A DNA stretch of 38,171 nucleotides from Actinomycetes bacterium (GTDB lineage Bacteria; Actinomycetota; Acidimicrobiia; Acidimicrobiales; JAJZXF01): the NCBI GenBank assembly GCA_021802485.1, contig JAJZXF010000018.1:1-38171 (forward strand). Direction: 5' to 3'. Both the position numbers and the translations under genes were made by a program. This document shows, piece after piece, positions 3,535 to 37,910 of this stretch (the first letter of the stretch is position 1; each line of letters starts with the position of its first letter). Below the pieces are notes generated by a model that made no database searches, was not told where the DNA came from, and worked only from the letters and a program-made list of their open reading frames with translations.

Positions 3535-3542
3535 GCGCCGCG

Positions 3543-5900: not shown

Positions 5901-5920
5901 ACACTGGCCGGAGGCGACCG

Positions 5921-12640: not shown

Positions 12641-12666
12641 ACAAGTTACAAGGAGACCCCAACACT

Positions 12667-13794
12667 TTGACCGCCACATTCAGCGAGACCGCCGTCATTT
12701 TCGGAGGCCCGTCGCCAGAGCATGACGTGAGCATCTTGACTGGCCTCCAGGCAGCTAGGGCCCTAATGGACTCACCCGGCGCATCTCAGGCGATTCATCC
12801 GATCTACTGGACTAAGTCAGGTGACTGGTTCGAGGTGAAGCCGGATTCTGAAGCAGCGAGCTTCATTGATGGCCTACCTCGGAATGCAAAACCCCTAGAG
12901 CTTGTGGTTGGCGGCGGAGGCTTCCGAACCAAGGCAAGCGGCTTGGCAAAAAGACGTCCCCTGGAGATAACGACGGTTGTTAATTGCTGCCACGGTGGCC
13001 CGGGCGAGGACGGGAGCCTGCAAGCCACGCTCGACCTCGCGAAGATCCGATACACGGGACCCACGGTTGCGAGCGCGGCCATTTGCATGGACAAGATCTC
13101 TTCCGCTGCCATCATCGCCGCAGAAAATATCCCAGCTCTTCCGCGCCGCCTCCTCACCACCACATCTTGCGACCCCGGCTTCCCTGGGCCTTACATCCTA
13201 AAGCCACGCTTTGGCGGATCTTCGATCGGCATCGACGTGGTCACTGACCTTGCTACCGCTGTCGCGCGACTCTCGACGAACCCGCACCTTCGTAACGGCG
13301 CGGTCATCGAGCCGTACCGTCCCGACCTGTACGACCTCCAAATCGGCGTACGGTCCTGGCCTGAGCTCCAGCTCTCGACCATCGAACGACCGCTCAGAAC
13401 TAGAGCTGGTTCCGAGATCCTGGGTTACGCAGACAAGTACGTGGGAGATGAAGGCATGGTAAGTGCCCCCCGCGAGCTTCCTGCGAAGATACCCGATGAA
13501 GTTGCGCAGCGTATCAGGGATGCCGCAAAGCAAGTAGCGACCGCTATGAGCATAAGGGGCATCGCACGCATCGACTTCCTTTCCGACGGAGATCAGGTTC
13601 TGCTGAACGAGGTGAATACGATCCCAGGATCCCTGGCAAGACATCTTTGGACAGAGCCCGAGATCGGTTTCAAGGATCTTCTAACCGACATGATCGACGA
13701 AGCATCAGCGCGACCTGCCGCTTCCTTCACCACCGTTGGAGCCGATGGAAGTGTTCTCCGGGGAGCAGGGGCAATAGCAAGCAAGTTGGCCTAG
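12667..13794 (+). CDS. ddl: D-alanine--D-alanine ligase-like ATP-grasp enzyme
   Basis: A 375-residue ATP-grasp protein. The start FGGPSPEHDVSILTG (12-26) is the Ddl substrate-binding N-terminus; CCHGGPGEDGSLQATLDLA and YTGPTVASAAICMDK follow, then PYILKPRFGGSSIGI in the ATP-grasp lid and LLNEVNTIPGS (~312-322), the metal-binding end. The omega-loop region holds GYADKYVG (~253), with the Tyr-x-x-Lys-Tyr pattern of D-Ala-D-Ala ligases and not that of D-Ala-D-Lac (VanA-type) enzymes. It joins two D-alanines for peptidoglycan in the cytosol. The TTG start at 12667 follows AGGAG (12651-12655) by 11 nt; the open frame back to 12424 has no Ddl similarity. The gene stands alone, so a tailoring role on another D-amino-acid substrate is possible. 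Confidence 0.88.
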   Translation: MTATFSETAVIFGGPSPEHDVSILTGLQAARALMDSPGASQAIHPIYWTKSGDWFEVKPDSEAASFIDGLPRNAKPLELVVGGGGFRTKASGLAKRRPLEITTVVNCCHGGPGEDGSLQATLDLAKIRYTGPTVASAAICMDKISSAAIIAAENIPALPRRLLTTTSCDPGFPGPYILKPRFGGSSIGIDVVTDLATAVARLSTNPHLRNGAVIEPYRPDLYDLQIGVRSWPELQLSTIERPLRTRAGSEILGYADKYVGDEGMVSAPRELPAKIPDEVAQRIRDAAKQVATAMSIRGIARIDFLSDGDQVLLNEVNTIPGSLARHLWTEPEIGFKDLLTDMIDEASARPAASFTTVGADGSVLRGAGAIASKLA

Positions 13795-15343: not shown

Positions 15344-18300
15344 TTGTGGGACCAATATCTTGCGACCCAGGAAGGAGATCTGCAGACTTTGCGGATGGAC
15401 GAACGCGACCTCGTAATTGGGGTTACACCCTTTGGCTACTGCGACACTCGCCTTACCCTCGCGCTCATTCACTCCGGTGCTCTAGCGGTGCTCGATCTCG
15501 GGAAGAACCCCGACGCGTCGCGCTCCGCGATCTCTGAGATATGTGCACACACATCTCAACCCTTTGGCGTACGCGTGACCAGACGCTCTGGCCTCGCTCC
15601 CCAGTCAGTCCCCTCTCAGGTTGATACGGTCATCGTCGAACAGCCATCGCTTGCTGGCGACTGGCGCGGCAGGCGGGTGCTGGTCGAGATAACCTCGGTG
15701 GACGAAGCCCGATCCGCTGCGGCCCGTGGAGCCTCCGGTATCATCGCAAAGGGCTCCGAAAGCGGCGGGAGGATCGGCCAGGCGACTACCTTCGTGCTAC
15801 TCCAGCAGCTTGTGGATCAGGTCCCACTCCCCGTATGGGCAATGGGAGGAATTGGACTCCACACGGCCAGTGCCTGCCTCGTCGGTGGCGCCAGCGGGGT
15901 CGTAATCGACTCCCAGCTTGCCTTGGTCCAAGAGTCGTCTCTACCACCAGACGTGAAGTCGGCCATCTCGGCTATGGACGGCGCGGAGACCACCATGCTT
16001 GCTGGATATCGCGTCTACACCCGGCCCGACCTCCCGGTCGCGCGAATGGATCGCTCGATTGACCCATCCGGCGTTTCATCACGCCTCGGAGGCTCAAGCC
16101 TTCAAGAGCTCATCGCAGTCGGCCAGGAAGGTGCCTTCGCCGCGGATCTTGCCAAGCGATTCAAGACCGCAGGTGGAGTAGTGCAGGCGCTCAGGCGTTC
16201 GATCACGAGCCATATGTCGTCTGCTGTAGCGCTGCGCCCCCTCGCTCCGGGCTCCTCTTTCGCAGCAGATCACGGTATCCGCTACCCGATTGCACAAGGC
16301 CCGATGACGCGGGTCAGCGACCGAGCGGACTTCGCAGCTGCAGTTGCTAGCGCTGGGGCACTCCCGTTCCTCGCACTCGCGCTCATGAACGCGAAGGATG
16401 TCCGCACGCTGCTGGAAGAGACCGCGGAAAAACTCGCTGGTCGCCCTTGGGGTGTGGGGATTCTCGGCTTCGTTCCCCAAGAGATTCGCTCAAGCCAATT
16501 GCAGGTTGTGCACGACATCCGCCCGCCAGTGGCTCTTATCGCTGGTGGCCGCCCCTCTCAGGCCCGGCCCCTCGAGGACGCGGGCATCATCACATACCTG
16601 CATGTCCCATCACCAGGACTTCTGGACAGGTTCTTGAAAGACGGAGCAACTCACTTCGTCTTTGAGGGCAGAGAGTGTGGAGGCCATGTCGGGCCGCGCT
16701 CAAGCTTTGCTCTGTGGGAAAGCCAGATCGAGCGCCTGCTGGCCAGTGGATCGGCCAGCAAGGCCAGCGTCCTCTTCGCGGGTGGGATTCACGACGCGAG
16801 ATCCGCAGCTATGGTCTCCGCACTGGCAGCACCCCTCGCAGAGGCTGGCGCACGGGTTGGGGTGCTCATGGGAACTGCCTACCTGTTTACCGAGGAGGCC
16901 GTGAGCACGGGAGCCATCCTCCCCGGATTCCAGCAGGCCGCTATCTCGTGCAAGCAGACGCAACTACTCGAGACGTCTCCAGGACATGTGACCCGTTGCG
17001 CCCAATCGCCTTATGTCAACAAATTCACCGAGGAAAAGAACCGGCTGACATCGTCTGGGGCAACCCCTGAGGAGACCTGGGCAGCGCTCGAATCGTTGAA
17101 CCTCGGTCGGCTCCGGCTAGCAAGCAAGGGGCTGCGCCGCGACGGGGACGACCTAGTCAGCGTCGCGCCCAGTGAGCAACGCTCTGAGGGGATGTACATG
17201 ATCGGTGACGCTGCGACCTTGCGCCGCAGCGTCACCACAGCTTCAAAGCTGCACGAGGACGTGAGCTCTCGAAGCGCAGAGATCCTCGAGGCGGTCAGCA
17301 TCCCGGCACCGCCAACGCTGCACGGCGACGACGCTAAGCAACCAGCTGCCAAGAGCACGCCGGTCGCTATCGTTGGGATGGCATCCATCTTCCCAGGGGC
17401 ACGCGACCTTGACGAACTTTGGTCGAATTTGGTTGCTGGTGTCGACTCGATCACGGAGGTGCCTGCTGAACGGTGGAATGTCGACGCCTACTACGACCCG
17501 CAGGCCACCACCACCGGAGCCGGGAGCCGCACCCCGAGCAAGTGGGGAGGCTTCCTGCCTGCGGTCTTCTTCGATCCACTCCGCTACGGCATACCTCCCC
17601 GCTCCCTCGGCTCCATCGAGCCAGCACAACTTCTGAGCCTCGAGGTGGCCGCCCGGGCACTCGCAGACGCTGGTTACGCAGACCGGGAGATCGATCGCGA
17701 GAACACATCTGTCATATTTGGAGCCGAAGCCGGAACCGACCTTGCAAGCGCATATGGCTTCCGCGCCCTGTTGCCCGAGTATCTCGGCTCAGTGCCCGAC
17801 TGGTTGGACGAAACCCTGCCGAAGGTAACCGAGGACTCCTTCCCAGGCGTGCTCACGAACGTCATCTCAGGGAGGATAGCCAACCGGCTTGACTTCGCAG
17901 GATCGAACTACACCGTTGACGCCGCGTGCGCCTCGTCGCTTGCAGCAGTTGACCTAGCGTGCAAGGAACTCGCGAGCGGACACAGCAGCGTCGTGCTCTG
18001 CGGCGGGGCCGACCTCCACAACAGCATCAACGACTTCCTCCTATTCTCTGGAGTTCACGCGCTCTCCCCTACCGGTCGGTGCCGAAGCTTTGACTCTTCT
18101 GCAGACGGAATTGCCCTGGGGGAAGGGATCGCGTGCGTGGTGCTCAAACGGCTCAGCGACGCAACTCGCGACGGTGATCGGATATACGCGGTTATTGATG
18201 GCGTCGGCAGCTCGAGCGACGGCCGCAGCCTCAGCCTCACCGCACCCCGGAAAGAGGGTCAGAGGCTCGCGCTGGAAAGGGCCTACGAACGCTCCGGCAT

Positions 18301-21300
18301 CTCCCCTTCGAAGGTCGGGCTGATGGAGGCCCACGGGACAGGCACTGTCGTCGGCGACCGCACGGAACTCGCAACCATGACCGAGATGTTCACCGCCAGC
18401 GGAGCAAGTACCGGTTCATGCGTGCTTGGCTCCATCAAGTCCCAGATCGGCCACACCAAGTGCGCTGCTGGGCTCGCTGGTCTGATCAAGGCAGCGCTGT
18501 CGCTCTATCACGGCGTACGACCACCGACGCTTCACATCGAGGAGCCGAACAGCTACTACGACCCAGAGCGTAGCCCGTTCGCCTTCCTCAAGCGCTCCCA
18601 GCCCTGGGTCGACACAGACCGCCACGCTGGCGTCAGCGCCTTTGGCTTCGGCGGGACGAACTTCCACGTGGTCCTCTCGGCCCACGACGCGCTCGAACCG
18701 CCTAAGCATGGTTTGAACGTGTGGCCTTGCGAACTCTTCATCTTCCGCTCTGAAGATCTAGAAGGTGCAATGGAGCTCATGAAACGCGTCGAGCGCTTTG
18801 CAACCTCAGTGCACCCAGGCGAGACAGGTTGGCGGTTCAGAGATCTCGCACGCACGGTATGCACATCGGGCTCTGGCACAGTGCAGGTGGCAATCGTCGC
18901 CCAGGACATCGATGACCTCTTGGGCAAACTCAAGACTGCACTGTCGCAGCTGATCGGGGAAGGTTCAACCAGATCCATCTCGAACGAGGCCGTGCAAAGC
19001 CCTAAGGGGATCTTTGTTGCACACCGTGACGCTTCTCCGGGGAAAATCGCCTTCTTGTTCCCTGGCCAGGGTAGCCAACGCCCTGACATGCTTGCCGATC
19101 TGTTCATCGCATTCCCACGCCTTGGGCGCCACCTCCTTCAGCAAGAGCGCTGGCGCGAGAAGATGTTCCCCCCGGCAGCGTTCAACCCGACACAAGTTGT
19201 CGCGCAGCGCAACGCTCTGACTGACACCCCGGTCGCACAGCCATGCCTTGGCATAGCAGACCTTGCAATTGCACACCTGCTTTCTGACCTCGGCATCAAA
19301 GTCGACCTTGCCTCTGGTCACAGCTACGGAGAGCTCGTCGCGCTTTGCATCGCAGGAGCGATCGATGAAGGGGACCTGCTCGCGCTCAGTGAGGAGCGTG
19401 GGCTCGCAATCATTGACGCTGCTGGTGACGAACCCGGCGAGATGGCTGCCGCAGGCGCGTCTTGCGCAACGGTCTCTGAGATTTTGGAAGGCTTCCCGGA
19501 TGTCGTAATCGCAAACGACAACTCGCCTCGACAGGTCGTGATCTCCGGGCAATCAGCGGCTCTGCATAGCGCGACCGAGGCGCTCGCAGAGGCGGGAATC
19601 CCAGTCCACCGGCTTCCAGTCGCATGCGCATTTCACAGCCCGGTCGTCGCGTCAGCCCAGGATCGTCTTCGAAAGTACCTTGGATCGCTGAAGATCTCTG
19701 CTCCCAGTTTTCCTGTATGGTCCAACGCAACCGCGGGCCCTTACCCGGATGATCCGGACGCGATTCGCGATCTTCTCGCTTCGCAGGTTGCACGCGGCGT
19801 ACGCTTCACCGAGCAGGTGCTTGACATGTACAATGCCGGCGCGAGAACATTCATCGAGGTTGGTCCAGGGTATGTTTTGACCCATCTCGTGGAAAAGACA
19901 TTAGGCACAAGGCGCCACGTCGCTGTCTCCTCGGACTCACCCAGAGAGCATGGTGTAACGCACCTGCTCAAGATGCTTGCACGGCTTGCAGTGAACGGAG
20001 TGCACATTGATACAGACCCACTCTTTGAAGGACGCTCAAACACACTTGACCTGGATGCCCAGCCAGCAGCACCACCCGGCTGGCTCGTGGACGGCTATCT
20101 CACAAGGAGCGCTGACGGCAGCCCGATACCGAACGGCCTCCGCCCCGCGCCGGGCAACGATGCATCTGAACTCGGAGCCCAGCGGCTCGCGCAACTTGGC
20201 GGAGCAACGACATCATCGGCGCTTTCCGATACACGACTCGCGCTACAATCTGGCGCGGTCGCGAGCCGCACATATTCCTCAACAGCAGCCAGCTCAAAGG
20301 TGACCAACATGGACGAACTGGATGCGACCGTTATTGAATTTCTGCGCTCGATGCGTGAGGTCGTCGCCACCCAGCGTGAGGTCATGCTGACCTACCTCGG
20401 TGGATCACGAGGAACCACCTACGACCGCGGCACGCTTGACAGCGCTGCTCCCGCAGCAACCAGCGCTGCGGCATCCTCACCACGGGCAGAGGCGCAACGG
20501 GAGGAGATGGCTCTCACTCCCACCCAGAACACACTTCAAATCCACTCCGCCGCCGAGATCGCGGCCACCGAGATCGGGCCTACGATCAAGCCCACAAACG
20601 CAGGCCGCGAGGAGACCGCCCCCAAGGCCCTCGACGCGGCGTACCTTCTCGACACGCTCGTACAGATCGTGAGCGATCGCACTGGCTACCCTGCCGATAT
20701 GCTCGAACCGGACCTCGACCTCGAAGCCGATCTCAGCATCGACTCCATCAAGCGGATGGAGATTCTAGGCGAACTCGCTGACCGGCTCCCGCTTCCCGGC
20801 TCGTCCGATGGTCAGGTAAGCGACGACCTGATCGAGGAGCTGGTCCAGATCAAGAACCTGCGCGGCATTGCTGATTGGCTCGAGGCGAGGTCCCAAGAGG
20901 TCCCCACCGAAGCTGAGCCCGGCGCCTTGCCACAAGGCACTGTAGCGGAAACCTTGCAGCCTCACACGATACCGGAAAAGACATTGCGGTTCGTTCCATA
21001 CATCGAGGTCCTCGCGGATGACCCGTACGAAGCCGACCGATCCGTGCTCGCGGAGCGTAGGTTTGTGATCGTAGACGACGCGAGAGGCATCGCAACAGAA
21101 CTTGCGGCCCGCCTCGACAAGGTCGGCGCAATCGCTGAGGTAGTAAATGCAACTGCGGTCGCTGCACTGCGGTCCGCTGGGACATCGCATGTTCGAACAC
21201 CGGTTGACTTCGAAGAAGCTGACGGCCTCATCTACCTCAGCGCGCTGAGTACTCGCGACCACAACAGCCCAGAAGGTCACTCCGCGTCCCCAGCTCATGC

Positions 21301-22600
21301 TGAAGACCTCTTCGTGCTCGCGCGCCAGTTCCTCACAACCGCCCGGCATCCGCGATGGCTTGTAGCAGCAACCGGCTTCGGGGGGACATTCAGCATGCCA
21401 GAACAACAAACCCCACTGCTCGCAGGCTCCGCTGTTTCGCTGCCCGACTCCGCAGAGCGTCCAAGCAGCGCAGCTGCGAGCTTGCAGGGATCGCTTTCGA
21501 CGACAGCGCTCCCTGAAGGTGCAGGCATCCCGGGGCTCATGAGAACCATAGCGAGGGAGTACCCGCAGGTCGTCGCCCGCACGGTTGACGTCGACAACTT
21601 TTCGAGCCAAGCCGACATAGCAGAAGACATCCTGTGCGACCTGATCTCTCGCGCTCCTACGCCTGATGTTGGCCACCAAGGTGGCCGCCGCACGAGAACC
21701 CGCTTTCAACGCGCTGCACTCCCATCCTTGCCCACAAGCGAACGGGGCATCGAGCTCGGCCCGGAATCGGTCGTGGTCATCACCGGGGGCGCTCGCGGCA
21801 TCACCTCTTTAGTCGCTGTAGAGCTAGCACGTCGCTACGGATGCCAGCTGGAGTTGCTGGGAAGGTCTCCCCTCCCCGAGGGCGACGAAGACCCGGTCAC
21901 AAAGGATGCAAGCAGCCTCGCTGAAGTACGCAAAGCGCTCATTTCATCCGGGCTGAGAGACCATAGCGAGGTCGAAGCAACAGCATCAAGTGTCCTTCGC
22001 GCTCGCGATATACGAAGAACTCTTGCAAAGATCGATGCCACAGGCGCCGAAGCGAATTATCACCCAGTCGACGTGAGGGACGCCTCCGCTCTTCAAAACG
22101 TGATCGAGGACATCTACTCCCGCCACGGGCGTATCGATGGGGTAATTCACGGCGCTGGAGCTATCGAGGACAAGCTGATCGCGGACAAGACACCGGATTC
22201 TTTCGCTCGCGTGTTCTCGACCAAGGTGCAAGGCGCGATCAACCTCATCCGCCCCTTGCGCTCTGACGTAAGCTTCATCGTGTTCTTCACGAGCATCGCG
22301 GGAGCCTTCGGAAACCGCGGCCAGGCAGACTACGCGGCCGCGAACGACGCCCTTGTCGCTCTAGCGAGATCGCTCCAGCGACAAACCAGCGGACGGGTCA
22401 TCGCTATCGACTGGGGACCCTGGGCAGGGACTGGCATGGTCTCCGCAGAGCTCGAGCGCGAGTACGCGAAGCGCTCCATTGGCCTAATTCCTCAAGCAGA
22501 AGGCATCCAGATGCTCCTCAACGAACTCTCGCATCGCGCCCAGGATGACGTAGAAGTCCTCGTGATGAGGGCCGAGCCGGAGCACTTCGAGTTCACCTGA
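15344..22600 (+). CDS. PUFA-synthase-like type I megasynthase, NMO-like/NMO/KS/AT/ACP/KR
   Basis: A 2418-residue protein; residues are counted from TTG 15344. Domains: a 2-nitropropane-dioxygenase-like TIM barrel (~20-230; AKGSESGGRIG at 135-145); a second, full-length NMO/PfaD-like FMN enoyl-reductase-type domain (~310-650; EGRECGGHVG at 441-450); KS (~672-1115) with Cys862 in DAACASS, His997 in EAHGTGT and His1037 in IGHTKC; AT (~1233-1545) with GQGSQ, Ser1327 in GHSYGE and His1431; a linker; one ACP (~1765-1848) with attachment Ser1801 in LSIDSIKRMEIL, the PfaA-type signature; and a KR with inactive structural part (~1885-2110), GGARGI (2148-2153), Lys2294, Ser2317, Tyr2330 and Asn2334. 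KS-AT-ACP-KR is the PfaA order. AAGGAG at 15372-15377 favours TTG 15389 or ATG 15395 as the true start. It heads a six-gene operon and is probably iterative. Confidence 0.88.
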   Translation: MWDQYLATQEGDLQTLRMDERDLVIGVTPFGYCDTRLTLALIHSGALAVLDLGKNPDASRSAISEICAHTSQPFGVRVTRRSGLAPQSVPSQVDTVIVEQPSLAGDWRGRRVLVEITSVDEARSAAARGASGIIAKGSESGGRIGQATTFVLLQQLVDQVPLPVWAMGGIGLHTASACLVGGASGVVIDSQLALVQESSLPPDVKSAISAMDGAETTMLAGYRVYTRPDLPVARMDRSIDPSGVSSRLGGSSLQELIAVGQEGAFAADLAKRFKTAGGVVQALRRSITSHMSSAVALRPLAPGSSFAADHGIRYPIAQGPMTRVSDRADFAAAVASAGALPFLALALMNAKDVRTLLEETAEKLAGRPWGVGILGFVPQEIRSSQLQVVHDIRPPVALIAGGRPSQARPLEDAGIITYLHVPSPGLLDRFLKDGATHFVFEGRECGGHVGPRSSFALWESQIERLLASGSASKASVLFAGGIHDARSAAMVSALAAPLAEAGARVGVLMGTAYLFTEEAVSTGAILPGFQQAAISCKQTQLLETSPGHVTRCAQSPYVNKFTEEKNRLTSSGATPEETWAALESLNLGRLRLASKGLRRDGDDLVSVAPSEQRSEGMYMIGDAATLRRSVTTASKLHEDVSSRSAEILEAVSIPAPPTLHGDDAKQPAAKSTPVAIVGMASIFPGARDLDELWSNLVAGVDSITEVPAERWNVDAYYDPQATTTGAGSRTPSKWGGFLPAVFFDPLRYGIPPRSLGSIEPAQLLSLEVAARALADAGYADREIDRENTSVIFGAEAGTDLASAYGFRALLPEYLGSVPDWLDETLPKVTEDSFPGVLTNVISGRIANRLDFAGSNYTVDAACASSLAAVDLACKELASGHSSVVLCGGADLHNSINDFLLFSGVHALSPTGRCRSFDSSADGIALGEGIACVVLKRLSDATRDGDRIYAVIDGVGSSSDGRSLSLTAPRKEGQRLALERAYERSGISPSKVGLMEAHGTGTVVGDRTELATMTEMFTASGASTGSCVLGSIKSQIGHTKCAAGLAGLIKAALSLYHGVRPPTLHIEEPNSYYDPERSPFAFLKRSQPWVDTDRHAGVSAFGFGGTNFHVVLSAHDALEPPKHGLNVWPCELFIFRSEDLEGAMELMKRVERFATSVHPGETGWRFRDLARTVCTSGSGTVQVAIVAQDIDDLLGKLKTALSQLIGEGSTRSISNEAVQSPKGIFVAHRDASPGKIAFLFPGQGSQRPDMLADLFIAFPRLGRHLLQQERWREKMFPPAAFNPTQVVAQRNALTDTPVAQPCLGIADLAIAHLLSDLGIKVDLASGHSYGELVALCIAGAIDEGDLLALSEERGLAIIDAAGDEPGEMAAAGASCATVSEILEGFPDVVIANDNSPRQVVISGQSAALHSATEALAEAGIPVHRLPVACAFHSPVVASAQDRLRKYLGSLKISAPSFPVWSNATAGPYPDDPDAIRDLLASQVARGVRFTEQVLDMYNAGARTFIEVGPGYVLTHLVEKTLGTRRHVAVSSDSPREHGVTHLLKMLARLAVNGVHIDTDPLFEGRSNTLDLDAQPAAPPGWLVDGYLTRSADGSPIPNGLRPAPGNDASELGAQRLAQLGGATTSSALSDTRLALQSGAVASRTYSSTAASSKVTNMDELDATVIEFLRSMREVVATQREVMLTYLGGSRGTTYDRGTLDSAAPAATSAAASSPRAEAQREEMALTPTQNTLQIHSAAEIAATEIGPTIKPTNAGREETAPKALDAAYLLDTLVQIVSDRTGYPADMLEPDLDLEADLSIDSIKRMEILGELADRLPLPGSSDGQVSDDLIEELVQIKNLRGIADWLEARSQEVPTEAEPGALPQGTVAETLQPHTIPEKTLRFVPYIEVLADDPYEADRSVLAERRFVIVDDARGIATELAARLDKVGAIAEVVNATAVAALRSAGTSHVRTPVDFEEADGLIYLSALSTRDHNSPEGHSASPAHAEDLFVLARQFLTTARHPRWLVAATGFGGTFSMPEQQTPLLAGSAVSLPDSAERPSSAAASLQGSLSTTALPEGAGIPGLMRTIAREYPQVVARTVDVDNFSSQADIAEDILCDLISRAPTPDVGHQGGRRTRTRFQRAALPSLPTSERGIELGPESVVVITGGARGITSLVAVELARRYGCQLELLGRSPLPEGDEDPVTKDASSLAEVRKALISSGLRDHSEVEATASSVLRARDIRRTLAKIDATGAEANYHPVDVRDASALQNVIEDIYSRHGRIDGVIHGAGAIEDKLIADKTPDSFARVFSTKVQGAINLIRPLRSDVSFIVFFTSIAGAFGNRGQADYAAANDALVALARSLQRQTSGRVIAIDWGPWAGTGMVSAELEREYAKRSIGLIPQAEGIQMLLNELSHRAQDDVEVLVMRAEPEHFEFT

Positions 22601-22635
22601 GCCAGCTAGCACGCAATAATAGCGAAACTCACCAA

Positions 22636-25600
22636 ATGGCCACCCAGACTCGAAGAACAGCGACAGATGACGACTCGCGCATAGCGGTAATTGGACTTGG
22701 AGCGGTGTTCCCTGGTGCAAGCGACCTCGACACCTACTGGCAGAACATTATCGATGGCGTCGATTCGATCACAGAGGTTCCCCCCGATCGCTGGGACCGC
22801 ACCTTCTACGACCCAGAAGTTACATCACCCGCACGTTTTTACTGCAATCGGGGCGGCTTCGTTGACGCTCGCGCTATCTTCGACCCGACGGAGTTCGGGA
22901 TCATGCCGGTCAGCGTCGACACCGCAGAACCAGATCAGCTGCTTGCGCTACGCGCAGCCTCGCAAGCTCTCGCAAGCGCAGGAAACCCACACCAGCGGGT
23001 GCCAAAGGACCGGATCGGCGTGATCCTCGGACGCGGTGGATACCTGACGGCCGGCCTCGCCCGCCTGGATGCGCGTGTTCGAATTGCAGAACAGCTCATG
23101 ACCTCACTGCGCGAGATCCTGCCCGAGGTCGACGACCTCGCTCTCGAGCAAGTGAGAGATGCCGTGAACCGCCACCTCGGGCCCGAACATCCAGAGGCAG
23201 CGATCGACCTCGTCCCCAACCTCACCGCTTCACGCACCGCTAACCGCCTGGACATCCACGGTCCCGCTTACACCGTCGATGCCGCGTGCGCCAGCTCACT
23301 CATAGCAGTCGACAACGCTGTACGCGAGCTGAACAGCCACAGGTGCGACCTCGTGATTGCAGGTGGTGTCCACCACTGCCACGACGTCACGCTCTGGAGC
23401 GTTTTCACACAGCTGAAGGCGCTGAGCGCATCACAGGAGATCCGCCCATTGGACACGGGTGCTGACGGCCTCCTGATCGGAGAAGGAACCGGGGTGCTCG
23501 TCTTGAAGCGCCTCGAGGATGCGGTGCGCGACGGCGACCCGATCTTCGCCTGCATCGCAGGAACAGGCATCTCGAGCGACGGCCGCGGGAGCCTAATGAA
23601 GCCAAGCTCAGACGGCCAAATGATCGCGCTCAGGCATGCGTGGCAACAAGCGCGCCTCGACCCATCGAACATCGGTCTGCTGGAAGCCCACGGTACAGCG
23701 ACCCCCGCTGGAGACGAGGCCGAGCTCATTACGATCCGCCGTTTCTTCGGCGAGCGAACCCCTGGCCAGCCTCTAGCTGGAATCGGGTCGGTCAAGTCGA
23801 TGATCGGCCACGCTATGCCTGCCGCTGGCGCTGCTGGGATGATCAAAGCAGTGCTCGCAGTACACCACGGCATCCTTCCCCCGACGCTGCACTGCGAAGA
23901 CCCAAACCCCCTACTGCTCAGCTCTGCCTTCCGGCCGGTTCAAGCAAGCGAACCTTGGAGTGATGACGCGGCTACGAGGCTCGCCGGCGTCAATGCCTTC
24001 GGCTTCGGCGGCATCAACGCCCACGTGGTGATCGAACAGGCACCAGGTGGTGCGCGGCAGCGCTCGAAACCCGACCGGGGTGCTCGCCAACCAAGCGATC
24101 GCGACACACAATCGCCAGGTGACAATTCCAATCCAGGTCCCGGGCGCCTGCTTCGGCTCGCTGCCCACACGACTGAAGACCTGCTCCAAGCGCTCGACGC
24201 ATACGCAAGGAGCATCAACAGCGATAACGACACGGAGAACAGCCTCACGGTAGCTGGCGACGAGACGGGGGGCCTCCGGATCGCAATCATCGACGCGAAC
24301 CAGAGGAAGATCGAGCTTGCACGCAGGGCGATCGAGCGAGGAGTGCCGTGGTCGGGTCGAAACGATGTCTGGTTTGCCCCAGATCGCATGCTCCTTCATC
24401 GCGGCAAGATAGTCTTCGCATTCCCTGGCGTGGAGCCGATCTTCGAACCACGTTTAAATGACCTGATCGCCCACTTCAACCTGGAGCGCTTTGGATTTCG
24501 CAGCTACGACGAGCCAGGGGACGCTCGGGATGTCAATGACACCACACGCGCGGGTTCGCTGGCTCGCGAACCCAGCGGTTCCGCTGGCGGTCTATCGGGG
24601 CTCGAAAGGCATGGCCGGGATATAATAGCTGTAGGCCGGATGCTCGATGCCGCGCTCGCTCGGATCGGGATCCGCCCGGACATCGTCGTCGGCCACAGCA
24701 TCGGCGAATGGAGCGGGATGATATCGACCGAGATGATCCCTCGCTCGGAGATCGACGCATTCATAGACAGCCTTGGACTTGGGACCCTTGAGGTCCCAGG
24801 CGTCGTATTCGCGGCCGCTGCCTGCAGTGCGACTGATGCCTCACGAGCGATAGCAGGCATCCAAGACGTAGCTATCTCCCACGACAACTGCCCGCACCAG
24901 TCGGTGATCTGCGGCAGTGAAGATGGCATAAGGGCGTCCATAGAACGGCTCCGCGACATGAAGGTGCTCGCTCAGGTACTCCCCTTCAGGTCTGGGTTCC
25001 ACTCTGCGATGTTCAAGGAGTTTCTCCCACCGTTCATCTCCCACACTGCAAGGCTGCCCCTTCAGAAACCGCGCGTCCCCTTATGGTCATCCACAACGTG
25101 CGCACCTTATCCGGATGATCCGGACGAGATTCGCGCTCTCGTCGCTAGGCACCTCGTTGAACCAGTTCGCTTCCGGGAGATGACCGCCAACATCCACGAG
25201 GCAGGCGGTCGCGTATTCATCCAGGTAGGCACGGGAAGCCTGCCTGGCTTCATCAACGACACGTTGCGGGACAAGGACCATGTTGCGCTTTCCTCCAACT
25301 CCCCAAAGACCTCGGGGCTCTCCCAACTACTTCGTGTCGCGTGTGCAGTGTGGGTACAAGGCGGCCAGCCACTCTTTGAGCGCCTATTCGAACCGGACCT
25401 CGATGCAGCGTCACAGGCTCTTGCTAACAGTGGTATCCACGACACTCTTGCGAGCCGGCCACGTGCCTCCACACTGTCCTCGTCGCAGTCTCCGCCCGAC
25501 GCCGGAGTCCACGACACCTCCCACCAGCTACGCCTAGGCGCCCCGCTCATCCACCTCGAGAACGTGAAGCTCACCAACATGGGTGGTGTGGACCTCATCA

Positions 25601-27339
25601 GCATCCCGAGCGACCCGCTGCTCGCTGAGATGACCGCTGTGATCCAGGATGCAGTCACAGCAAGCCGCGAGGTCGTTGCTTGCTGGCGGAGTCGCTCCAT
25701 CGGTGTTGAGACAAAGGACAGCGCGACCGACCGCGCCGCGAGCTCGGACCCGTCTGCAGCCGATCGAGCACCATATGCGCGACCCGAGAAGCAGGGACTC
25801 CAGACCGAGACTCATCCCGGTCCACGCCAGATCACGACCAAGCTGACGGTATCAGTCGATACAATGCCAGCGCTGCTGGACCACTGCTTCTATCGCCAGC
25901 CAGATCACTGGCGCTCCGTCAGCGATCGATATCCGGTCGTGCCGATGACTGCACTGGTCGACATCATGGCCAGTGCAGCTGCTGCGATGATCCCAGATTG
26001 CGTGATCGTCGCAGTAAAAAGCGTACGGGCAATGCGCTGGCTGGTCGCTGATCCCCCGACGGAGGTCGAGGTGAGAGCCATGATCGAGGAGCCCTACCGG
26101 GTGCAGGTTTCCATCGCTGGCTATGCGCGAGCAACGTTCATATTTGCGCGTGAATACCCGCGCCCCCCCCAGCTTGTCGATGCAGCACTTACCAATGAAA
26201 GCAGTGCCGAGATCAACGCGTCCCAGCTCTACCGGGACCGCTGGCTCTTCCACGGCCCTTCGTACCAGGGAGTAGTCGAACTCGGCAACGTTGCGACAGA
26301 CGGCATTCGCGGCACCCTTGAGGCGCTTGATGCGCCTGGGGCGCTCCTTGACAACGCTGGCCAGCTCATGGGGTACTGGATCATGACATCCGTGGAGATA
26401 GACCGTCTCGGGTTGCCAACCTCGATCGAGCACATCCGCTACTTCGGGCCATCTCCGAGACCCGGCGAACGCCTGGAATGCACCGTGCGCATCCGGGAGA
26501 TCGCTGCGCATCAAGTCCGTGCTGATCTGGAGCTATACCAAAGAGACCGGCTGTGGGGGTTGATCGAGGGCTGGGTCGACCGCCGTTTCGAGAGCGACCC
26601 TGTTGTCTGGCCAGTGCTCATCTACCCCGAGACCTCGCTCATCTCGCAGATGCGCCCAGGCGGCTACTCCTTCGCAGTCGAGCACTGGACCACGTCTGCT
26701 TCACGGGATCTTATGATGCGCAGGTACCTGAGCGAGGCGGAGCGAGAGCAGTACGGTGCCCGCAATCCACGTGCTCAGCGCGAGTGGCTGCTCGGACGAA
26801 TAGCCGTAAAGGACGCGGTTCGCCACTGGCTGTTTCAGCACGGATCAGGCCCGATCTTCCCCGTGGAAATCGCGGTCTCGAACGATGCGAGCGGCCAGCC
26901 ACACGTCTCAGGCCCGTTCACCGAGGAGCTGTGCGTCTCGATCGCGCATACGCAATGGGCTGCAGTTGCCATCGTCTCGACAGCGGCACAGGTTGGTATT
27001 GACGTCGAGAAGGTGCAAGATCAAAGCGAGCGCTTCGCTGAGATGACGCTCGCAGACAGCGAACGGGAGCTGTACGAACGCAAAGGTCGCGAGACAAGAC
27101 AGCACTGGTTGACTCGCATCTGGACTGCGAAGGAGGCTGTTGCAAAGAGCGTCGGCACTGGGTTGGCGGGAAGGCCCCGTTCCTTTGCTGCTACAGAGAT
27201 GGATGCTGACCGGCTCCTCGTAAACGATGTGTGGGTCCGTACTGAGCAGGTGGGTGACTTCATAGTGGCATGGACATGTGATGAGCCCGCAAGCTCTCAA
27301 GTGTCCCCGAACAACGACAACGAGGATGGATACGCGTGA
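22636..27339 (+). CDS. Megasynthase KS/AT-like/DH-like/4'-phosphopantetheinyl transferase
   Basis: A 1567-residue protein starting 35 nt after the previous gene. Domains: KS (~15-468) with Cys218 in DAACASS, His352 in EAHGTAT and His392; an AT-like domain (~590-900) with Ser688 in GHSIGEW and His789 (GFHS), but the N-terminal GQG motif is replaced by FPGVEP (596-601); a spacer (~950-1060); a double-hotdog DH-like domain (~1065-1320) with LLDHCFYRQP (His1083), VVPMTALVDIM, FHGPSYQGV and Asp1239 in LDNAGQL; and a Sfp-type PPTase (~1385-1545) with SIAHT, GIDVEK (Asp1456, Glu1458) and WTAKEAVAK (1496-1504). The HxxxGxxxxP spacing of standard DHs is not kept. The PPTase could activate the ACPs of this operon. 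No ACP is visible in this protein. The stop overlaps the next start (GTGA). Confidence 0.87.
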   Translation: MATQTRRTATDDDSRIAVIGLGAVFPGASDLDTYWQNIIDGVDSITEVPPDRWDRTFYDPEVTSPARFYCNRGGFVDARAIFDPTEFGIMPVSVDTAEPDQLLALRAASQALASAGNPHQRVPKDRIGVILGRGGYLTAGLARLDARVRIAEQLMTSLREILPEVDDLALEQVRDAVNRHLGPEHPEAAIDLVPNLTASRTANRLDIHGPAYTVDAACASSLIAVDNAVRELNSHRCDLVIAGGVHHCHDVTLWSVFTQLKALSASQEIRPLDTGADGLLIGEGTGVLVLKRLEDAVRDGDPIFACIAGTGISSDGRGSLMKPSSDGQMIALRHAWQQARLDPSNIGLLEAHGTATPAGDEAELITIRRFFGERTPGQPLAGIGSVKSMIGHAMPAAGAAGMIKAVLAVHHGILPPTLHCEDPNPLLLSSAFRPVQASEPWSDDAATRLAGVNAFGFGGINAHVVIEQAPGGARQRSKPDRGARQPSDRDTQSPGDNSNPGPGRLLRLAAHTTEDLLQALDAYARSINSDNDTENSLTVAGDETGGLRIAIIDANQRKIELARRAIERGVPWSGRNDVWFAPDRMLLHRGKIVFAFPGVEPIFEPRLNDLIAHFNLERFGFRSYDEPGDARDVNDTTRAGSLAREPSGSAGGLSGLERHGRDIIAVGRMLDAALARIGIRPDIVVGHSIGEWSGMISTEMIPRSEIDAFIDSLGLGTLEVPGVVFAAAACSATDASRAIAGIQDVAISHDNCPHQSVICGSEDGIRASIERLRDMKVLAQVLPFRSGFHSAMFKEFLPPFISHTARLPLQKPRVPLWSSTTCAPYPDDPDEIRALVARHLVEPVRFREMTANIHEAGGRVFIQVGTGSLPGFINDTLRDKDHVALSSNSPKTSGLSQLLRVACAVWVQGGQPLFERLFEPDLDAASQALANSGIHDTLASRPRASTLSSSQSPPDAGVHDTSHQLRLGAPLIHLENVKLTNMGGVDLISIPSDPLLAEMTAVIQDAVTASREVVACWRSRSIGVETKDSATDRAASSDPSAADRAPYARPEKQGLQTETHPGPRQITTKLTVSVDTMPALLDHCFYRQPDHWRSVSDRYPVVPMTALVDIMASAAAAMIPDCVIVAVKSVRAMRWLVADPPTEVEVRAMIEEPYRVQVSIAGYARATFIFAREYPRPPQLVDAALTNESSAEINASQLYRDRWLFHGPSYQGVVELGNVATDGIRGTLEALDAPGALLDNAGQLMGYWIMTSVEIDRLGLPTSIEHIRYFGPSPRPGERLECTVRIREIAAHQVRADLELYQRDRLWGLIEGWVDRRFESDPVVWPVLIYPETSLISQMRPGGYSFAVEHWTTSASRDLMMRRYLSEAEREQYGARNPRAQREWLLGRIAVKDAVRHWLFQHGSGPIFPVEIAVSNDASGQPHVSGPFTEELCVSIAHTQWAAVAIVSTAAQVGIDVEKVQDQSERFAEMTLADSERELYERKGRETRQHWLTRIWTAKEAVAKSVGTGLAGRPRSFAATEMDADRLLVNDVWVRTEQVGDFIVAWTCDEPASSQVSPNNDNEDGYA

Positions 27340-27701
27340 GCGACCAAGTAACCGACCAGTACCAAGCTTCCCGCAGGGATCTCACCACGGACTCCCCTGC
27401 TGCGGGCGATGATTCCCGTGATGGCATTTACGACGAGGTCCTCAATACCCTCAGGCGCATGATAAGCGAGATCATCGGCGAGGACTATCTGATGGACATC
27501 CCGATAACCGCTGAAACCTCGTTCTCAGATGACCTCGAGATGGAGAGCATCGAGTTCGTAGCACTTGCCGAGAGGCTGACCGACCACTACGGCGACGCGG
27601 TCGACTTCGTAACCTGGATGGCGGGAATGGAGCTGGAGGAGATCATGGCTTTGACCACTGGCCAGCTAGTCGACTTTATCGTCGCGTGCATCAACCGGTG
27701 A
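27336..27701 (+). CDS. Stand-alone acyl carrier protein
   Basis: A 121-residue acidic protein. The first ~35 residues are unstructured and polar; residues ~33-115 form an ACP fold. The phosphopantetheine attachment site is Ser71 in DLEMESIEFVALAERL, where most ACPs have DSLE. Pre-attachment (TSFSDDL) and helix-IV regions (TTGQLVDFI) are present. The GTG start overlaps the megasynthase stop by 4 bp, so translation is likely coupled and stoichiometry set. Its partner activating enzyme is probably the PPTase fused to the preceding protein. It could carry the starter, hand the chain to a hydrolase, or supply the discrete carrier for the second KS-AT protein, which lacks its own ACP. Confidence 0.86.
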   Translation: MSDQVTDQYQASRRDLTTDSPAAGDDSRDGIYDEVLNTLRRMISEIIGEDYLMDIPITAETSFSDDLEMESIEFVALAERLTDHYGDAVDFVTWMAGMELEEIMALTTGQLVDFIVACINR

Positions 27702-27720
27702 GACGGGTGGGCCTCGCGAC

Positions 27721-28461
27721 ATGGAGCTGGTCGAAGCGAACGGAACCTTGATCAACACGCTCTGCATCGGCGATGGTCCTCCTGTGGTAATGGTCCACGG
27801 GCTCTTTACCGCCAGCCTCGCGTCGTGGTTCTTTACCTGCGCGCCCGAGATCGCACGCTCGCACTCCGTGCTCCTCTACGACCTGAGAGGACACGGCCGC
27901 AGTCCTCGCACGAGAGACGGCTACGACGTCGCCACGCTCGCAGGAGACCTCGACGCACTCACCTCGGAGTCCGCACCGTTCGCTCTCGTGGGCCACAGCT
28001 ACGGAGCTTTGATCGCTGCACGGTTCACGATCGACTCCCCTGGACGCGTAACCCGACTCGGGCTGGTAGAGGCACCTTTGAACCCCGCTCCAATTGCGGA
28101 CCTCGATGACGAGCTCTCCGTCCTCGCGGACCTGGCACGTGATGTGCGCCACAACGCCAAGACCCCGACTCCTCGCTCCCAAGCGAGCATCCGCGCCCTG
28201 ATCCGCGAGACGTCCATCCTCTCGGACATTCGCTCCGAAGAGCCACTACCCGACACATGCCTCGCTCAGATCCGGATACCCGTGCTCTGTGCGTACGGAA
28301 GCCGCTCCCCGTACCTCGACGCAGGTCGTCACCTCGCCTCCGTGATCCCTGATGCGCATCTCGCGGTGCTAGATGGCGGACACTCTCTCCACGTCGATTC
28401 CACCAGCGAACTCACCCGCCACCTGAAAGCTTTAATTGATGCGGAGGACGCTCATGCCTGA
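27721..28461 (+). CDS. Alpha/beta hydrolase, first of a pair
   Basis: A 246-residue alpha/beta-fold hydrolase. The oxyanion-region HG is in VVMVHGLF (22-29), the strand-5 block in LLYDLRGHGRS (51-61), the nucleophile Ser93 in GHSYGA, and the catalytic His221 in DGGHS. The acid residue is not clear; Asp200 in SPYLD is a candidate. It starts at ATG 27721, 19 nt after the ACP gene, and overlaps the next gene by 8 bp. In this setting a thioesterase or acyl-transfer role that releases or edits the ACP-bound chain is the simplest guess, but the fold alone does not prove it. Confidence 0.82.
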   Translation: MELVEANGTLINTLCIGDGPPVVMVHGLFTASLASWFFTCAPEIARSHSVLLYDLRGHGRSPRTRDGYDVATLAGDLDALTSESAPFALVGHSYGALIAARFTIDSPGRVTRLGLVEAPLNPAPIADLDDELSVLADLARDVRHNAKTPTPRSQASIRALIRETSILSDIRSEEPLPDTCLAQIRIPVLCAYGSRSPYLDAGRHLASVIPDAHLAVLDGGHSLHVDSTSELTRHLKALIDAEDAHA

Positions 28462-29272
28462 GGTGAAGTCGAACGGAATCACCTTTCACGTACAGCACCT
28501 GCGCAACGGCGACAAGACCGTCGTGTTCGTCCACGGACTCGTCATGGACAACCTGTCCAGCTGGTATTACACGCTCGCGAACTCCGTCGCTCAGCATGCC
28601 GAGGTATTCCTCTACGACCTTCGCGGACATGGCAGGTCAGAACGGCCCGCGACCGGCTATACCATCGATGACCAGGTACAGGACCTCTACTGCCTGCTTG
28701 AAACGCTAGGCGTGACCCGGCCTGTGTACCTTGCAGGCAACAGCTTCGGAGGTGTCATTGCACTTGCGTTCGCCGTTGCCCACCCTGAGAGGGTGGCCGG
28801 ATTGATACTCATAGAAGCTCACGTCGCAGTGGAGGGCTGGGGGGAGGTCATGGCTGGCGGGCTGAACCTTGCTGGACTCCTCCTCGATGACGCAGACGTT
28901 CAAGAGTGGTTGGACATCCAGGGTGGACGCAAGCTAAACCGCATGGCACGCAACGCTGAAGCACTCATCTGGAACAGCTCGCTCGTCGAAGACCTCAGGG
29001 ATGCGCCACAGTTCCACGAGAGCGACCTGCGCAGGATCACCTGTCCAACGCTCGCGATCTACGGAGAGCACTCTGACGTGCTCGATCGCGCGCACGAGCT
29101 CGCACAGCTGCTGCCCAACTGCGAGCTGAAGGTGTTCCCCCACCGCACGCACTCGGTCATTATGGAGGCCACCCCCGAGGTGCGCGCAGAGGTGCTCGCC
29201 TGGCTCGCGCACCAGGCGCCTGCGCACCCGGATGCGCTGCGCGCGACGGACAACACGGCCGGGGAGGACTGA
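28454..29272 (+). CDS. Alpha/beta hydrolase, second of a pair
   Basis: A 272-residue alpha/beta hydrolase with a clear triad: Ser97 in AGNSFGG, Asp208 in YGEHSDVLD and His233 in RTHSV. VVFVHGLVMD (23-32) and FLYDLRGHGRSERP (52-65) match the first hydrolase closely in position and wording, so the two probably arose by duplication. I chose ATG 28454 because GGAGG sits 6 nt upstream (28443-28447); the open frame reaches 28436. Having GNSFG where the neighbour has GHSYG suggests they divided substrates. One may act as chain-releasing thioesterase and the other as an esterase or acyltransferase. Confidence 0.84.
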   Translation: MPEVKSNGITFHVQHLRNGDKTVVFVHGLVMDNLSSWYYTLANSVAQHAEVFLYDLRGHGRSERPATGYTIDDQVQDLYCLLETLGVTRPVYLAGNSFGGVIALAFAVAHPERVAGLILIEAHVAVEGWGEVMAGGLNLAGLLLDDADVQEWLDIQGGRKLNRMARNAEALIWNSSLVEDLRDAPQFHESDLRRITCPTLAIYGEHSDVLDRAHELAQLLPNCELKVFPHRTHSVIMEATPEVRAEVLAWLAHQAPAHPDALRATDNTAGED

Positions 29273-29277
29273 ACGCT

Positions 29278-30522
29278 GTGGGACGATTCCTCTTTGTAGT
29301 TCCGCCGCTTCGAGGCCACGTGAACCCGACCATCGCAGTCGGCGAGGAGCTGGAAAAACGTGGACACGAAGTCGCGTGGGCTGCGCACGCTGATCTAGTT
29401 GGCCCGTTGCTCCCACGCGCTGCTCGAATCATCCCGATGGGCGCGGACGTCCCGCACGAGGTCATGGACTCCCTGACCACCCGCTCTGAAGGGTTACGCG
29501 GCGCAGCTGCACTCAAGTTCTTATGGGAGGACTTCCTCGCGCCGCTCGCCAGGTCCATGGTGCCAGGCGTGAATGCCGCGGTAGACACCTTCCAGCCGTC
29601 CGCGGTCGTAGTGGACCAGCAGGCAGTCGCTGGCGCTCTAGTCGCGAGGCAGCGCAAGCTACGCTGGGCAACCTCAGCGACCACCTCCGCGGAGCTGACC
29701 AACGCTCTTGATGGCCTACCAAAGGTCGCTCAATGGGTCCGGGACCAGCTGGTGGCCTTCCAGATCGAACACGGGGTGTCGCAAACAGACGCAAGCCTGG
29801 GCGACCTACGCTTCTCCGACCAGCTCGTCATCGCTTACACCACGAGAGAACTCTTCGGGAAGGAAGGGGACTTTCCGGCCCATTTTGCCCTTGTCGGTCC
29901 AGCATTTACATCCAAGAGCCGACCAGAGCAGACAGAGTTCCCGTTCGAAAGCCTCGCAGCTGACGTGCCAAAGGTGCTCGTCTCGCTTGGCACGGTCACA
30001 ACGGGAGCAGGGGCAAGGTTCTTCTCCACAGTGGTCGAAGCGTTCGAGGATGCCGCTGTTCAAGTAGTCCTAGTCGCGCCCGCTGAGCTGGTGCCCCGGT
30101 CCCCGGCCAACTTCATCATCAGGCGGTTCGTCCCCCAAACGGCCTTGCTTTCCCACATGAACGCAGTGGTCTGCCACGCTGGCCACAACACGGTATGCGA
30201 GTCACTTGCACACGGCCTGCCGCTCGTCGTCGCTCCAGTGCGAGATGATCAACCGATAGTCGCTTCACAGGTCGCAAATGCAGGTGCGGGCATCCGCGTC
30301 CGCTTCGGGCGAGTACGGCCACGGGAACTCGCCGCGGCAGTGGACGAGGTGCTCACCGACCCGGGATACCGCGCGGCAGCCCGTAGGATCCAGAACTCCT
30401 TCCTGGCCGCTGGCGGGGCCGTTGCAGCCGCTGATCGCCTGGAAGATCTCATAGCGCGAGAAGACTCCGAGCACCCAGGCAGCTCGGGCGGCGTCACTAC
30501 CACACCACCAGCGAAAGCCTGA
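29278..30522 (+). CDS. MGT/UGT-type glycosyltransferase (GT1-like)
   Basis: A 414-residue GT-B-fold enzyme. The N-terminus GRFLFVVPPLRGHVNPTIAV is the acceptor-side start of macrolide/UGT-type glycosyltransferases. The donor-binding signature is in the C-terminal half: RRFVPQTALLSHM (~281-293), VCHAGHNTVCESLAHGLPLV (~297-316), and APVRDDQPIVASQV. It probably transfers a sugar from a nucleotide donor to a lipid or polyketide hydroxyl; sugar and acceptor are unknown. The GTG start has GGGGAGG 10 nt upstream (29261-29267) and lies 5 nt after the hydrolase stop, so it closes the operon. No membrane segment or signal peptide is seen. Confidence 0.88.
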   Translation: MGRFLFVVPPLRGHVNPTIAVGEELEKRGHEVAWAAHADLVGPLLPRAARIIPMGADVPHEVMDSLTTRSEGLRGAAALKFLWEDFLAPLARSMVPGVNAAVDTFQPSAVVVDQQAVAGALVARQRKLRWATSATTSAELTNALDGLPKVAQWVRDQLVAFQIEHGVSQTDASLGDLRFSDQLVIAYTTRELFGKEGDFPAHFALVGPAFTSKSRPEQTEFPFESLAADVPKVLVSLGTVTTGAGARFFSTVVEAFEDAAVQVVLVAPAELVPRSPANFIIRRFVPQTALLSHMNAVVCHAGHNTVCESLAHGLPLVVAPVRDDQPIVASQVANAGAGIRVRFGRVRPRELAAAVDEVLTDPGYRAAARRIQNSFLAAGGAVAAADRLEDLIAREDSEHPGSSGGVTTTPPAKA

Positions 30523-35132: not shown

Positions 35133-36722
35133 TCAGGAGACCAGGTCCCCGTGGCCTTGTTCTTCCTCGCGGTTCTCCCGGGCCAGCACTACCAGCTCGG
35201 CCAGTGAGCGCTCCAGCCACGCAACAAAGTCACCAGGGTCGACAAGCGCGTCGGCGAAAGCTTCAATACCGAAAATAACCCGGTCAGCATAGCTCCACAC
35301 CGTGATGTTCAGCCCGACGCCCTGGTTGGGCGGTCCGAACCAGAAGAACTCCTCACAAGCGGACGATTCGAGCCGCCAGGCACGATCGGGGCCACGGAAG
35401 GAAGAGATTAGGAGGTTCTGGTCAGCAACGTTGCGGTTCGCACGGCGACGTCGGTACTGGCGCGTGGTGATCAACCGCGTGATTAGCGGTGGGATCCGGT
35501 CAATCCACTCCCACATGAGCTCGGGATCGATAACTTCAAGGTCGCCTCTTGCATCAGCTGCGACAGCGCTGATCACCTTCAGCCGTTCCCACGGATCGAC
35601 GATGTCGGTTGCGAGACTGGTACTGAAAGCCAAGATGTGATTCCCATAGGTTCGCTCCGGTTCGTCGGGCGTCTCGATCGACACAGGAACGCTTGTGACC
35701 AAGGGCTGCTCCGGCAAGGAGTCGCGGTCCGCCAGATAACCCCGTACGGCACCAGCCACCACTCCAGCTACAACGACGAAGCGGCTAACCCCACGAGCGT
35801 TCTGGATTTCCCGGAAGTCAGCGAGCGGGAACGAGGCGTGCGCTACGACCTGGGGACGAGTGAACGCGTTTGCAAAGGGCGACGGCGGGGTGTCCTTTGG
35901 TGTTCGGGGGACCTTGACCACCGACCGCTCTCGGCGCTTCTCGAGAGCTCGATAGTTCGAGACCGTGGTGGAGATGAGCGACGGAACACGCTGCAAAGCG
36001 CGTATCTGGTCACCCAGAGCGTTGCCAATGAGACGCCAGCGCCCAGGTGGTTTCCGTGGAGTCCAGTCCTCCGCTGGGCCCCGCTCATCCGGATCCTCCT
36101 CCGAGAAAAGGATCTCGAAGGTTCGCAGGCCGGCAGCGCCGTCAAATAGGCAGTGGTGGAACCGGGCGACAAGCGCCTGGCGGTTATCGCTGAGCCCGTC
36201 GACAAGCGTGATCTGCCACAGCGGATGACGCCGGTCGAAGCGGCGCTGAGCGAGCGCCCCCAGGAATCGGTACAGCTCCGCAAGCGAGCCGGGAGCCGGA
36301 AGGGTGACATGAGCAAGGTGCCTGTCGAGATCGAAGTCCACAGCGTCCACGAAGACCGGATGGTGCAGACGGCCCGGCACCGGGCGAACACTCCATCGCA
36401 AGTAGCTCAGGGCATCGAGACGTTGTTCAATGTGGCGTCGGAGTCGCTCGGGGCTGATGGCGCGAGCTGAGCCGCCAGAGCGCACCGTCGGAGAAAGCAG
36501 AGCTACGGCGAGGATGCCCAGCGGCTGGTTCGGCTGCTCGAGGTAGAAGAAGCCAGCATCTTCTCCACTCAGCCGGCGGCGCGCGAGCCTCAGTTCCTCC
36601 AGTCGCCGCTTGATCTGAAGTCCCCGCTCCCGGCGACGTTCCCGGCGACGTTCCATGAATCGGCGGATACCCGTATTCCTCGGTGGCCGCTTGCGAAGCA
36701 AACGGTGGTTCCGGGTGCGCAT
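35133..36722 (-). CDS. Wax ester synthase / diacylglycerol acyltransferase (WS/DGAT)
   Basis: A 529-residue acyltransferase that esterifies acyl-CoA to diacylglycerol or fatty alcohol for storage lipid. The catalytic HHxxxDG is at 189-195 (HHCLFDG), preceded by FDRRHPLWQITLVDGL. The second half has the family blocks FVVVAGVVAGAVRGYLADR, PLVTSVPVSIET, GNHILAFSTSL and LLISSFRGP, and ends with PPNQGVGLNITVWSYADR. It has a striking Arg-rich N-terminal 50 residues (RERRRERG...), not needed for the fold. ATG 36722 and ATG 36656 are both possible starts. The gene stands alone between IS debris. It may be unlinked to the PKS operon, although both concern lipids. Confidence 0.88.
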   Translation of the reverse strand: MRTRNHRLLRKRPPRNTGIRRFMERRRERRRERGLQIKRRLEELRLARRRLSGEDAGFFYLEQPNQPLGILAVALLSPTVRSGGSARAISPERLRRHIEQRLDALSYLRWSVRPVPGRLHHPVFVDAVDFDLDRHLAHVTLPAPGSLAELYRFLGALAQRRFDRRHPLWQITLVDGLSDNRQALVARFHHCLFDGAAGLRTFEILFSEEDPDERGPAEDWTPRKPPGRWRLIGNALGDQIRALQRVPSLISTTVSNYRALEKRRERSVVKVPRTPKDTPPSPFANAFTRPQVVAHASFPLADFREIQNARGVSRFVVVAGVVAGAVRGYLADRDSLPEQPLVTSVPVSIETPDEPERTYGNHILAFSTSLATDIVDPWERLKVISAVAADARGDLEVIDPELMWEWIDRIPPLITRLITTRQYRRRRANRNVADQNLLISSFRGPDRAWRLESSACEEFFWFGPPNQGVGLNITVWSYADRVIFGIEAFADALVDPGDFVAWLERSLAELVVLARENREEEQGHGDLVS

Positions 36723-37860: not shown

Positions 37861-37910
37861 AAGGATCGGTACCAGCCTAAACCAACCGATCGAGGTAAGA
37901 GTACGCCAGA

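Follow-up and report, generated by a model that had tools for sequence, protein, structure and literature searches.

Six consecutive genes on the same strand occupy positions 15344-30522 of the window, the 38,171-nt stretch of DNA analyzed here, which is contig C125 of a 2.86-Mb genome in 152 contigs. They encode two megasynthases (ORF1 and ORF2), a free-standing acyl carrier protein (ACP), two alpha/beta hydrolases and a glycosyltransferase (GT) (Table 1). The gap between ORF1 and ORF2 is 35 bp, ORF2 and the ACP gene overlap by 4 bp, the ACP gene is separated from hydrolase 1 by 19 bp, the frames of the two hydrolases overlap, and the GT gene follows hydrolase 2 after 5 bp; this tight spacing fits an operon. 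For ORF1, the ATG at 15395, preceded by GGAAGGAG, is a more likely start than the TTG at 15344, and hydrolase 2 likely starts at the ATG at 28454. Pfam searches assigned two NMO domains followed by KS, AT, PP-binding and KR to ORF1, KS, AT and ACPS (PPTase) to ORF2, PP-binding to the free ACP, Abhydrolase_1 to both hydrolases and UDPGT/EryCIII-like domains to the GT, whose nearest model was that of macrolide GTs (195.8 of 260 bits) rather than lipid GTs; the DH region of ORF2 had no Pfam match. The six closely spaced genes and their domains, as proposed in the initial annotation, were thus borne out by the ORF check, by Pfam and, for the DH, by a predicted fold. All six frames were open and intact and active sites were retained, ruling out frameshift or decay.

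Table 1. Genes and domains of the operon, with one neighboring gene (coordinates in the window; locus counts refer to loci with room downstream among the best 80 of at least 563 relatives of ORF2)
Feature	Coordinates	Strand	Evidence and remarks
ORF1, megasynthase ER1-ER2-KS-AT-ACP-KR	15344..22600	+	Single open frame, 2418 aa from TTG
ER1, FabK-like TIM barrel, predicted pseudo-enoyl reductase, catalytic His replaced by Arg (SGGR)	15395..16123	+	Pfam, alignment, model
ER2, predicted FabK-like enoyl reductase, catalytic motif ECGGH (His448)	16241..17293	+	Alignment, model
KS1, active Cys (VDAACAS)	17357..18688	+	Pfam, motif, tree
AT1, malonyl type (GHSYGEL, Arg at Ser+25, ACAFHS)	19043..19915	+	Pfam, motif
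Single ACP domain (LSIDSIKR)	20651..20863	+	Pfam, motif
KR, Ser-Tyr-Asn site (SIAGAFGNRGQADYAAAN)	21770..22426	+	Pfam
ORF2, megasynthase KS-AT-DH-PPTase	22636..27339	+	Single open frame, 1567 aa
KS2, active Cys (VDAACAS), not a chain-length factor	22675..24045	+	Pfam, motif, tree
AT2 (GHSIGEW), without carboxylate-binding Arg	24415..25380	+	Pfam, motif, PfaB precedent
DH, predicted PKS-type double-hotdog dehydratase (His1083/Asp1239)	25819..26769	+	Predicted fold and conserved dyad
PPTase domain (ACPS superfamily), VSIAH (P1b') motif	26788..27285	+	Pfam, NCBIfam, motif
Free-standing ACP	27336..27701	+	Pfam; 62 of 65 loci
Alpha/beta hydrolase 1 (GHSYG nucleophile)	27721..28461	+	Pfam; 6 of 65 loci (minority of relatives)
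Alpha/beta hydrolase 2 (GNSFG nucleophile)	28436..29272	+	Pfam; 62 of 65 loci, core cluster member
GT1/MGT-type glycosyltransferase	29278..30522	+	Pfam, NCBIfam; 64 of 65 loci
Wax ester synthase/DGAT (WS/DGAT)	35133..36722	-	Above model cut-off; second copy on contig C43 of the genome

Elsewhere in the window, genes for a phosphoketolase and an acetate kinase lie in a row (3459-7114, plus strand), and a D-Ala-D-Ala-ligase-like ATP-grasp protein, scoring below cut-offs, is encoded not far upstream of the operon (12424-13794, plus strand). At the window end, a 447-aa frame (36757-38100, minus strand) had no Pfam or NCBIfam match and looked transposase-like by eye.

The N-terminal 640 residues of ORF1 were predicted to form two FabK-like barrels (pLDDT 91.6, pTM 0.93), whose best solved structural matches were FabK. 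The GGH motif of ER2 was invariant in 15 of 15 diverse rows, and the corresponding His of ER1 was present in none of the 15. The ER pair of Beijerinckia Type P repeats this pattern, with GGQ in the first copy and GGH in the second. The two NMO domains had been described as PfaD-like units fused onto the synthase; the fusion was confirmed, whereas both sequence and structure place the domains nearer FabK, and the first copy is degenerate. Because TIM-barrel ERs act as dimers and a thraustochytrid ER pair is a heterodimer (PMC13311796), an in-chain pseudo-ER/ER pairing is the likely role of ER1.

Both KS domains retain the active Cys (DAACAS), which rules out a chain-length factor (CLF) hidden in KS2 and agrees with the earlier observation that no CLF domain was visible. 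The best solved sequence match of KS1 (474.7 bits, against 301.5 for the next one) was 7zma, from a trans-AT PKS of Brevibacillus brevis BGC11, hinting that a Pfa-like KS may have been recruited into that cluster. The malonyl-type Arg at Ser+25 was found in 74 of 86 AT1 matches and, at that position, in 0 of 86 AT2 matches. The 12 AT1 matches without Arg probably come mostly from loci with ORF1 cut off, where AT2 was matched instead, because 12 GHS-GEW motifs occur among the AT1 matches. PfaB lacks the same Arg, shows no detectable malonyl-CoA binding and transfers palmitoyl to ACP (PMC12895367), and by analogy we infer that AT2 is a PfaB-like terminal acyltransferase. The DSIKR motif occurs once in ORF1, in line with the single ACP, without a tandem array, noted initially.

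When the DH region of ORF2 was searched against the PDB by sequence, the best match reached only E 1.1; therefore, a fold search was needed. Residues 1062-1378 were predicted to form a double hotdog (pLDDT 87.8) with PKS dehydratases as the best solved matches, the nearest being the DH of a mycocerosic-acid-synthase-like PKS, and the catalytic dyad was invariant (His1083 in 87 of 87 and Asp1239 in 88 of 88). The predicted fold and the His-Asp dyad rule out an ORF2 without DH, as the missing Pfam match might have implied, and the one DH-like region seen previously is modeled as a single PKS double hotdog. The PPTase carries SGQP and VSIAH, as for Types M-T of the secondary lipid synthases, and an MRRYLS stretch that resembles P0 (hRxhLS). 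For Type M, the defining paper gives the motifs P1a x(G/D)xP and P1b' hShxH and does not list P0 (PMC3098273).

That paper, by Shulse & Allen in 2011, divided the secondary lipid synthases into 20 types; it places members of Type M in Frankia, Actinosynnema, Renibacterium and S. avermitilis and gives no product for the type (PMC3098273). In Renibacterium, the genes are a fused pfaDA and a fused pfaBC-PPTase (PMC13291983). The Type M trait of a fused ER and PfaA protein plus a second fused protein ending in PPTase was also found here. An IQ-TREE phylogeny of 43 KS rows was built, in which Frankia and Actinosynnema are represented by congeners in place of the 2011 strains, and which does not include enediyne, Hgl or gammaproteobacterial (Shewanella) PfaA KSs. 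In this tree, KS1 formed a clade with Frankia torreyi and Actinosynnema pretiosum (support 100/100), and this clade was sister to Beijerinckia Type P (95/79) rather than part of it, with the Persicobacter PfaA-like KS outside. KS2 also grouped with the KS2 domains of Frankia torreyi and Actinosynnema pretiosum. Several long-branch rows are unreliable according to a program warning, none of them in the KS1/Type P join. The initial annotation had considered that the KS domains might fall within a characterized family of identical gene order and known product; a family with the same gene order was identified, but we found no product of Type M in the literature.

Named genomes were scanned with an ORF2 alignment, at least 563 relatives were confirmed and the best 80 were kept, so that the locus rates describe the closest relatives of ORF2 rather than all relatives. 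Among these best 80, ORF1 was complete at all 66 loci that had enough sequence upstream, and ACP, hydrolase and GT occurred together at 60 of the 65 loci with room downstream. Counted singly at these 65 loci (Table 1), ACP, hydrolase 2 and GT were each nearly always present, and a methyltransferase gene was found at 44. The hosts included Streptomyces, Kitasatospora, Frankia, Actinosynnema, Actinomadura, Acidimicrobiales, Kofleriaceae, a planctomycete and Sulfidibacter, extending beside the actinobacteria to Myxococcota, Planctomycetota and Acidobacteriota. A genome of the same genus (G001) has the same gene order split over two contigs, and three genomes of other families also share it (G003, minus one hydrolase; G006; and G009, split over contigs). 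In an even sample of the phylum, the DH region was detected at E <1e-20 in 8 of 396 genomes, including the source genome itself. The same domain order in dozens of genomes is far beyond chance. This conservation rules out a local rebuild of a pfa operon: the layout, initially described as rebuilt, is an old, conserved type, and the suggested search for its gene order recovered it across actinobacteria and other phyla.

An ORF2 scan of viral contigs returned nothing. No methyltransferase was found elsewhere in the genome of the window, in a search run without a positive control. At two relatives' loci (L023:5324-7225 and L025:17109-18995), the gene after the GT encodes a methyltransferase of ~630 aa with an N-terminal part of ~380 aa that has no assignment. 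Two strong Type M DH matches each were found in Frankia torreyi (G063) and Sulfidibacter (G066), including those at loci L046 and L084, and these genomes probably carry two clusters each. The open frames that contain the DH in G252 and G090 are 3365 and 2574 aa long, which suggests that other fused variants of ORF2 exist.

Taken together, the operon is probably a Type M secondary lipid synthase with a conserved tailoring cassette and a saturated very-long-chain glycolipid as its product. In the proposed route, the PPTase domain would charge both ACPs, AT1 would load malonyl units, and KS1 (and KS2) would condense them. On the single ACP of ORF1, KR would reduce, the PKS-type DH would dehydrate and ER2 would reduce again in repeated cycles, with ER1, its His lost, most likely acting as the second barrel of the dimer that TIM-barrel ERs require. 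Given a KR, a DH and an ER that looks active, a saturated chain is the simplest output, and the sister Type P/ars synthase suggests by analogy that it would be very long (C20 or more). Full reduction in every cycle is unproven, and skipped DH or ER steps may leave hydroxyls or double bonds. Because the free ACP, a hydrolase and the GT form a constant cassette, they point to transfer, release and glycosylation: AT2, like PfaB, would load the completed chain onto the free ACP, hydrolase 2 would release or transfer it, and the GT would put a sugar on a hydroxyl or carboxyl, yielding a glycolipid.

A product that is a conjugated polyene or an incompletely reduced polyketide, of enediyne-like or aryl-polyene-like kind and with the GT acting on a polyketide hydroxyl, appears unlikely. 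Enediyne PKSs combine KS-AT-ACP-KR with DH-PPTase, as found here, the DH is of PKS type, and the GT belongs to the macrolide-GT class. However, two ER domains, one of them with an invariant catalytic GGH, argue for full reduction, the second KS-AT is foreign to enediyne PKSs, and in the KS tree, which holds no enediyne KSs, the nearest relative with a characterized product type is Type P.

It is also quite unlikely that the chain, although built by the proposed route, remains non-glycosylated or is further acylated, giving a wax ester or a sugar acylated by WS/DGAT, with the GT acting elsewhere. The WS/DGAT gene lies 4.6 kb downstream of the operon, and the same type of gene adjoins the cluster at four other loci (L024, L030, L034 and L058), making it a possible operon partner. 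Nevertheless, among the best 80 of at least 563 relatives, the GT is nearly constant and WS/DGAT is adjacent in few; moreover, the gene in the window is on the opposite strand, and the genome holds a second copy.

The relatedness to PUFA synthases claimed initially was upheld, with PfaA (TIGR02813) scoring highest among the NCBIfam models for both ORF1 (944 bits, under its cut-off of 1010.1) and ORF2 (438 bits). Despite these scores, the DSIKRMEIL ACP site and the KS-AT-ACP-KR order, a compacted true PUFA synthase with pfaA-E function, making methylene-interrupted cis double bonds, is very unlikely in view of the sub-threshold ORF1 score, one PKS-type DH instead of the DH/isomerase pairs of pfa systems, the absence of a CLF, a KS2 that is catalytically intact by motif, and an ER nearer to FabK than to PfaD.

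Beyond this operon, we tentatively suggest, as a single joint claim, that a single, so far undescribed class of glycosylated very-long-chain lipids, common to Actinomycetota, Myxococcota, Planctomycetota and Acidobacteriota, is produced by this cluster, using an internal pseudo-ER/ER dimer and a PfaB-like terminal acyltransferase that feeds a dedicated free ACP. The 2011 listing of Type M gave no product, and we found none in later work, although the cluster is present in cultured Streptomyces such as S. pseudovenezuelae GGS1 (L042) and S. griseoruber (L067). The conservation of GT and hydrolase, the loss of His in ER1 and of Arg in AT2, and the DH dyad now lead to a testable prediction, namely a saturated, glycosylated very-long-chain lipid.

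Compared with Type M, the operon shares the clustering of KS1 and KS2, both fusions and the downstream ACP, hydrolase and GT, and its PPTase has an hShxH motif alongside the P0-like stretch; it differs in its second hydrolase gene, most relatives carrying a single one, and in that no methyltransferase was found here. With Type P/arsABCD it shares the tandem pseudo-ER and ER, KS-AT-ACP-KR in one protein and a sister KS clade, and the Type P DH-PPTase is homologous to that of ORF2 (28% identity, E 3e-52). In Type P/arsABCD, however, the DH-PPTase protein has no KS2-AT2, and the chain is passed to type III PKSs, of which Pfam found none among the six operon genes; Beijerinckia Type P (plasmid pBIND02) has two ACP stretches instead of one. 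The ars system of Azotobacter makes chains for phenolic lipids, given as C22-C26 in PMC3098273 and as C23-C25 in PMC4824345. With pfaA-E, the operon has in common the KS-AT-ACP-KR order, the DSIKR ACP site, a TIM-barrel ER and a second AT lacking the malonyl Arg, whereas it has no CLF, DH pair or tandem ACP array and carries a FabK-like ER pair. The initial comparison with heterocyst-glycolipid loci survives in that a glycosylated lipid is the likeliest output and in the combination of an iterative long-chain synthase with a GT. The likeness to hgl is one of analogy only, since hgl synthases are described as KS-CLF-AT without DH (PMC3098273), whereas here a DH is present and a CLF absent. Finally, unlike the enediyne PKS, a single KS-AT-ACP-KR-DH-PPT protein, the operon divides its domains between two proteins and has an additional ER-ER and KS2-AT2.
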